Source: Turicibacter bilis (GTDB lineage Bacteria > Bacillota_I > Bacilli_A > MOL361 > Turicibacteraceae). From it: 64,000 nucleotides of DNA. Numbering within the stretch: position 1 is the stretch's first letter; each line of letters starts with the position of its first letter. The notes beneath the pieces were generated by a model. That model did no database searches, was not told the origin of the DNA, and saw only the letters and a list, made by a program, of their open reading frames with translations. The position numbers and the translations under genes were made by a program. Below are positions 50,174 to 51,259 of the stretch, piece by piece. The stretch lies in the NCBI RefSeq assembly GCF_024499055.1, contig NZ_CP071249.1, positions 2,597,001 to 2,661,000 of the forward strand, given 5' to 3'.

Positions 50174-50213
50174 AAAAGCATAAAAGCAATCTATCTTGCT
50201 TTTATGCTTTTTT
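50174..50213 (+). terminator. Terminator of glgCA
   Basis: AAAAGCATAAAAGCAA and TTGCTTTTATGCTTTT form a perfect 16-bp stem followed by TT. Confidence 0.85.
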
Positions 50214-50371
50214 GTTACTTTTTTGATAACTTTAGGCATTTAGCAAAAACTAAAAAGTGGATGTGAAATATCTGTTTTTGCTTCTATATAAATAGCGAAA
50301 TATAGTTCATATTCTAACAATCAGGCTTAGTACGCAAGTCTTTTTGATAGAAAGGCGAACTAGGGTAGCGA

Positions 50372-50516
50372 TGGGTCACCTAGCGATTTCTGAAGAAATC
50401 CATTCCTTTACTGCTAGGACTGGGTCATCTGCCATTTTCGCAGAAAATGTATCCTCCATTGGCAGGGCTGGGTCACCTGCCATTTTCGCAGAAAATGTAT
50501 CCTCCATTGGCAGGGC
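50372..50516 (+). repeat. Three tandem 48/49-bp structured repeats
   Basis: Units at 50372-50420 (49 bp), 50421-50468 (48) and 50469-50516 (48), each starting TGGGTCA. Units 2 and 3 differ at one base; unit 1 is diverged. Each can fold as a nested hairpin: an outer stem (CTAGC/GCTAG in unit 1, CTGCC/GGCAG in 2 and 3), an inner stem (GATTTC/GAAATC versus ATTTTC/GAAAAT), and a bulge of about 12 bases on the 3' side. Base changes in the stems are paired, so structure is conserved. The last unit runs into GCTTTATTTTTT. No known family recognised; it lies between glgA and folE. Confidence 0.8.
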
Positions 50517-50695
50517 TTTATTTTTTACGTTATGAAAAACTTATTGGGGTTTATATATAGTTGGTCAGAATTAATGAAATTTTAAGGGGTGAAGTCTGAT
50601 ACTCTAAATGTAAAATATTAATCATTTTCAATATAGATTATGGTAAAATAGCATATATACTTAAATGTCGAATGATTATGTAAAAAGGTGATAAT

Positions 50696-51259
50696 ATGTC
50701 AGTGGATAAAAATAAAATTGAAACGGCCGTAAGAATGATTTTAGAAGCCGTTGGAGAAAATCCAGATCGAGAAGGAATAGTTGATACACCAGCACGTGTA
50801 GCACGTATGTATGAGGAAGTTTTCGGTGGATTACATGAAGATCCTTCAAAACATTTACAAGTTTATTTCAGTGAAGAATATGATCAATATGTCTTAGTAC
50901 AAGATATTGTCTTCCACTCAATGTGTGAACATCATTTATTACCGTTCTTTGGGAAAGTTCATGTGGCGTATTATCCTGAGAATAATGAGGTAGTGGGATT
51001 AAGTAAGATTGCTCGTGTAACAGATGTTGTTTCACGTCGACCACAACTTCAGGAGCGTATGGGAAAACAAATTGGGGATACGATTGCTAATGCGATTAAA
51101 TCAAAAGGTGTGATGGTTGTTATTGAAGCCGAGCATATGTGCATGGTAATGCGTGGCATTAAAAAACCGGGAGCTATGACCAAAACAATCTATAGCACTG
51201 GAATTTTTAAAGAAGATTTAGCAATGAGACAGGAAGTATTAAATTTAATTAAAGGATAG
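50696..51259 (+). CDS. folE: GTP cyclohydrolase I
   Basis: A 187-residue enzyme that converts GTP to dihydroneopterin triphosphate, first step of folate (and pterin) synthesis. Zinc and active-site motifs are [18 protein letters not shown] (about 76-93) and [12 protein letters not shown] with the second zinc Cys, so it is the zinc-dependent type I form. AAAAGGTGAT precedes ATG. It is 11 bases upstream of aroC and probably heads the folE-aroCBA operon; chorismate made by that pathway feeds p-aminobenzoate for folate. Confidence 0.94.

Follow-up and report, generated by a model that had tools for sequence, protein, structure and literature searches.

The stretch of DNA analyzed here, hereafter the window, covers 64,000 nucleotides (positions 2597001-2661000) of the 2.79-Mb single-contig genome of Turicibacter bilis (G000). 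Between glgA and folE lie three tandem repeats with periods of 49 and 48, which had been picked out in an initial annotation of the window and are indeed real; their exact limits are listed in Table 1 together with the neighboring features. A terminator-like hairpin after glgA separates the array from that gene. Elsewhere in the window, two tandem S-box SAM riboswitches were found (181-283 and 368-469), both well above the gathering score.

Table 1. Features of the glgA-folE region, in window coordinates.
Feature	Position	Strand	Remarks
Terminator-like hairpin after glgA	50174..50211	+	between glgA and the array
5' module of the outer 129-bp repeat (TATATA...)	50285..50372	+	diverged copy; placed by aligning the unit-free outer repeat locally to the window minus units
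Unit 1	50373..50419	+	47 nt; GGGTCA, outer stem CCTAGC/GCTAGG, inner hairpin GATTTC/GAAATC, 12-nt bulge; DNA fold z -2.4
Unit 2	50422..50467	+	46 nt; family hairpin with DNA parameters, z -1.7
Unit 3	50470..50515	+	46 nt; 1 base differs from unit 2; DNA fold z -2.65
3' module of the outer repeat (hairpin AAAAACTT... ending TATATATA)	50516..50559	+	84% identity, 37 nt, E = 3e-6
TAGATTATGGTAAAATAGCATATATAC, promoter-like block upstream of folE, downstream of the array	50634..50660	+	conserved in G001, G002 and G004 by synteny; putative promoter

Units 2 and 3 represent one member of the family and unit 1 another, and the paired changes reported between them are present both in the outer stem (CCTAGC/GCTAGG vs. 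CCTGCC/GGCAGG) and in the inner hairpin (GATTTC/GAAATC vs. CATTTTC/GAAAATG). Since units 2 and 3 are nearly the same sequence, these changes amount to one comparison between two family members. The selection on structure that had been argued from them is nonetheless borne out, its weight coming from covariation across the family and not from the three copies in the window. The nested hairpin ascribed to every unit stands for all three with DNA parameters and with those only; RNA parameters return it for unit 1 alone, while units 2 and 3 take other minimum-energy folds (z 0.0 and -0.9). It was also rightly judged that the array encodes no peptide and belongs to no known RNA family, there being no Rfam match up to E = 1 across 50200-50700.

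The window repeats are one array of a genus-wide Turicibacter family of hairpin DNA modules of ~45 bases. The genome-wide search that the initial annotation had called for found further copies, again with paired changes. A strict pattern recovered 69 units in G000 and none with its reversed control, so that the family exceeds chance in this genome; unit 3 of the window is one of the pattern matches (G000:C1:2647470-2647515). Units are present in all five Turicibacter species genomes (G000-G004), in which a looser pattern gave 111, 50, 20, 13, and 36 matches vs. 6, 17, 8, 7, and 4 for the controls. Among 84,980 named species, a search which may leave out records very near the window, the stricter pattern was found in Turicibacter only. 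Plasmid and phage collections gave no unit match, and viral contigs gave none to the strict pattern, their looser matches being attributable to chance by sequence and pairing. Outside Turicibacter, matches to the unit thus appear to be chance occurrences only.

All 145 distinct units share one architecture, made up of an outer stem, an inner hairpin stacked on it, and a fixed 12-nt bulge containing TCCTC. The unit begins with GGGTNN and ends with TAGGG followed by a 3-nt tail, and the consensus reads GGGTYM-CCTRS-N-[inner hairpin]-12-nt bulge with TCCTC-RSYAGG-G plus the tail, with an inner hairpin that varies in length and sequence. GGGT, CCT, and AGGG are invariant among the 145 units, but the same letters served to pick them. 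The TCCTCC noted earlier as complementary to a Shine-Dalgarno sequence is present in the bulge; however, its conservation throughout the family means that it belongs to the element and is nothing particular to folE. Covariation exceeded shuffled alignments both in the 46-nt class (30 distinct units; 0.368 vs. 0.150, 0 of 500 shuffles) and in the 48-nt class (26 distinct units; 0.348 vs. 0.161, 0 of 500), and was also greater than in slid controls. Outer pair 5 alternates between C-G (about 70 units) and G-C (about 60). No signal beyond the known stems was seen in the mutual information between GGGT and the bulge, where a pseudoknot or guide pairing was looked for.

One strand of the unit is the functional one. 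At outer pair 4, which played no part in picking units, there are 67 A-T, 64 G-T, and 6 G-C pairs and not a single A-C, and this wobble asymmetry indicates that the unit strand, and not its complement, has been selected to fold. The consensus fold was likewise reached by 57 of 125 units on the unit strand vs. 14 on the complement with RNA parameters, and by 57 vs. 30 with DNA parameters, the two parameter sets tying at 57 of 125 in ensemble folding. Inner loops are triloops in 107 of the 133 units that have a helix, with GNA triloops in 64 of 145 and a GNRA tetraloop in one of 145. Loops of the c(GNA)g type are known for very stable DNA mini-hairpins, and the excess of GNA triloops is a hint of folded DNA. 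Two variants deserve mention in their own right. In a subclass of inner hairpins (e.g., L108 and L084), tandem G-A mismatches replace Watson-Crick pairs midway along the stem and an NNA triloop closes it, as in GTGAAC-GCA-GTGAAC and GTGAGC-AAA-GCGAAC. Also found among units (after a unit at L043 and in an array at L155) is a short related element whose outer stem is CCCCAC/GTGGGG and which lacks the inner hairpin.

The array in the window lies inside a second, independent repeat of 129 bp (TATATAGAAACAG...GTCCAG^CTAAAAG...CTGGACTTATATATA), giving a BOX-like A-Bn-C composite. The outer repeat has TATATA at both ends and is itself dispersed, with 52 matches in G000, 49 in G004, and 27 in G002, some with and some without units. 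Where units are present they mostly lie at the marked point, between outer repeat positions 85 and 87, and positions 1-85 and 87-129 flank from 0 to 9 of them.

Given its position upstream of folE, its structure and the covariation across its family, the array could be imagined as a cis-regulatory RNA of that gene, either a riboswitch or a leader. The regulatory role is unsupported. The glgA-folE gap is syntenic in the related species G001, G002, and G004 and contains neither units nor the outer repeat there, whereas the promoter-like block is conserved in these genomes; because that block is downstream of the array, the array would fall outside the folE leader. Copies of the unit also lie beside unrelated genes, in many intergenic regions and inside insertion sequences (IS), and the lack of an Rfam match speaks against a known riboswitch class as well. 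We therefore regard a folE-specific RNA as extremely improbable. The window array would instead be a species-specific insertion of selfish repeats, with nothing to suggest control of folE, and an effect of the array on transcription read-through is possible.

Units without the outer repeat halves occur singly in ISL3, IS3, IS30, IS66, IS256, radC, and ssb. Host genes were typed by Pfam on their uninterrupted pieces (ISL3, IS256-type Mutator, IS3, the rve domain for IS30, IS66, RadC, SSB, and PD-(D/E)XK), and unit-free copies of them were found by searching with the joined flanks. Comparison of filled and empty sites gives a net insertion of the core plus 3 nt in IS3 orfA, IS3 orfB (two species), IS66 tnpB, IS66 tnpC, IS66 tnp, and radC, as well as in the ISL3 C-terminus and the N-terminal ISL3 site of G000; the core plus 2 nt was inserted in ISL3 of G001 and at two IS30 sites. 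Insertion in genes is thus precise, often after RAT and before G, with no strict target duplication and with the core-plus-2 exceptions. Most gene insertions have an AAT tail, whereas CTT, TAT, or CAC is found elsewhere, so that the exact unit ends given here are provisional. In G001, six ISL3 copies carry an identical unit and six have none, with identical or almost identical flanks near the site, and in five of the six with a unit the IS is shared over its full length, at different positions in the chromosome. Such filled and empty copies show that a unit was inserted recently and that the interrupted IS then spread, probably in trans with the help of intact copies.

Genes contain units on either strand. 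Counted by hand, the distinct gene insertions number about 18 in sense and 6 in antisense (two-sided binomial p about 0.02), a mild sense excess that may stem from selection or from units entering the coding strand while it is displaced. Antisense insertions are seen in IS66 tnpB (three copies), IS66 tnpC, an IS3 junction, and a Fic-domain gene. Several individual sites were also recorded. The radC genes of two species (L084 2161 in G000 and L244 2195 in G002) carry almost identical units at a matching position, with 12 codons of the gene left to follow. One IS3 copy (L083 2285, 3003, and 3240) carries a unit in orfA and two more in orfB, with frames otherwise open on both sides. In a prophage-like ssb (L250 1869-2423, G004), a 51-nt unit together with AAT keeps the frame and contains no stop, yielding an SSB with 18 extra residues. 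PD-(D/E)XK (Rpn-like) genes at L108 (G003) and at L093/L260, L096, and L097 (G001) have units at the same two internal sites, and the 60-nt exon between the units hardly differs between genes with a dS above 0.5 in their last exons. It looks as if this unit-exon-unit piece has recently been exchanged as a cassette among paralogs.

We consider it likely that the unit is a selfish miniature mobile DNA hairpin module, and that the window holds an array of three inside the outer repeat with no demonstrated role at folE. It measures 40-65 nt plus a 3-nt tail, is inserted precisely at numerous sites and forms tandem arrays with a period of unit plus 3, very often inside the outer repeat. Encoding nothing itself, it would be moved in trans by a putative host or IS enzyme that recognizes the hairpin on one single strand, and the covariation would be kept by selection for transposability and not for a job at folE. 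Movement as single-stranded DNA, as in IS200/IS605 or REP hairpins, is the leading though tentative extension, to which we give somewhat less than even chances. Y1 transposases (PF01797) are encoded in G000, G001, G003, and G004 and are candidate enzymes, although in unit-bearing G002 none reached the threshold of the search. Inspection of the flanks of the Y1 genes showed no sequence like the unit, and a link between the unit and IS200 ends was dropped.

Other accounts of the same observations have to be weighed against this mobile module. The composite may be an ordinary BOX-type intergenic repeat, moving as a whole in the manner of a MITE through a resident IS transposase, with unit number varying by tandem slippage only. 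Its A-Bn-C layout is that of the Streptococcus pneumoniae BOX (PMC3049150), the outer repeat is itself dispersed, and arrays are internally homogeneous, as slippage would have them. However, lone units free of outer halves sit precisely in genes for which the empty site is known, and the inner module therefore moves independently. The BOX-type account is therefore incomplete and, as a full explanation, unlikely, although it may hold for movement of the outer repeat. Mobility at the RNA level, in which the unit would enter transcripts and return to DNA by reverse transcription, would suit the sense excess in genes and the coincidence of the functional strand with the sense strand. Antisense insertions exist, however, and many insertions are in AT-rich intergenic repeats, making this route quite improbable.

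The remaining account places the function of the unit in translation. As a programmed bypassing element, the mRNA hairpin would be skipped by the ribosome, from GGG/GGU at the unit start to GGG at its end, and host genes would stay functional. GGG is invariant at both ends (letters also used in picking units), and reading frames are intact on both sides, with the phase restored by a Gly-to-Gly hop, in IS3 orfB, radC, Rpn-like genes, G001 ISL3, and IS30. ISL3 copies whose transposase gene carries a unit are found at several chromosomal places, and the last exons of unit-bearing PD-(D/E)XK genes have dN/dS of about 0.04-0.1. Reading phase at first fitted in five host genes; more sites brought mixed phases and antisense copies, and reading phase no longer favored the hop. 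By hand count of sense sites, 8 of 16 phases fit the hop (IS3 orfB twice, radC, SSB, two Rpn-like sites, G001 ISL3, and one IS30), whereas IS3 orfA twice, IS256, the ISL3 C-terminus, IS66, the second IS30, and more do not, and antisense insertions cannot use a hop at all. Intact IS copies of the same genome can supply the function in trans, housekeeping genes were not seen to carry units, and in the Rpn-like genes of G001 a ribosome would meet a stop just after landing. The PD-(D/E)XK units also look younger than their host genes: because units and intervening exon show much greater similarity than other parts of the gene, the low dN/dS may predate them. We hold bypassing to be very improbable; if true, it would mean that mobile 45-nt mRNA hairpins, being skipped by ribosomes, can reside in transposase genes and others and leave them working.

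If the unit is a mobile DNA module, as we favor, a sequence of ~45 nt that inserts precisely, and whose empty and filled sites can be compared between nearly identical IS copies within a single genome, would rank among the smallest mobile bacterial DNA units documented, and a mobile inner module would explain the variable number of inner modules in BOX-like composites. Covariation would then reflect selection for transposability, a caution that covariation upstream of a gene is not proof of a regulatory RNA.

Known systems share parts of this picture. In pneumococci, BOX elements are built as boxA-boxB(n)-boxC, with a varying number of boxB modules that fold largely on their own (PMC3049150). 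The Turicibacter composite resembles the BOX of S. pneumoniae and S. suis (PMC3049150) in layout, which is the level at which the two were compared, rather than in sequence: both have two flanking modules around a variable number of structured inner modules of ~45 nt that fold independently, and both are intergenic with some genes disrupted. The Turicibacter family is from another genus, however, and its inner units also insert alone in genes, with precise empty sites and in both orientations. With REP/REPIN elements and their RAYT, and with IS200/IS605 ends, the unit shares a short, imperfect, dispersed hairpin of which one strand is selected, and the proposed movement in trans. It differs from these in being a single hairpin with a fixed 12-nt bulge and a tandem period of unit plus 3, in having neither a GTAG-type foot nor a linked RAYT, and in that no Y1 protein was found in unit-bearing G002. 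Like the byps of yeast mitochondria and the gap of phage T4 gene 60, the units are short hairpin inserts in open reading frames with glycine codons (GGG/GGU) at their ends, but they occur in mixed phases, with antisense copies and in non-essential hosts. Finally, they recall the Rickettsia palindromic elements as palindromic repeats in genes, one of them read in frame (in the SSB gene at L250), although the Turicibacter unit is shorter and does not keep the frame as a rule.
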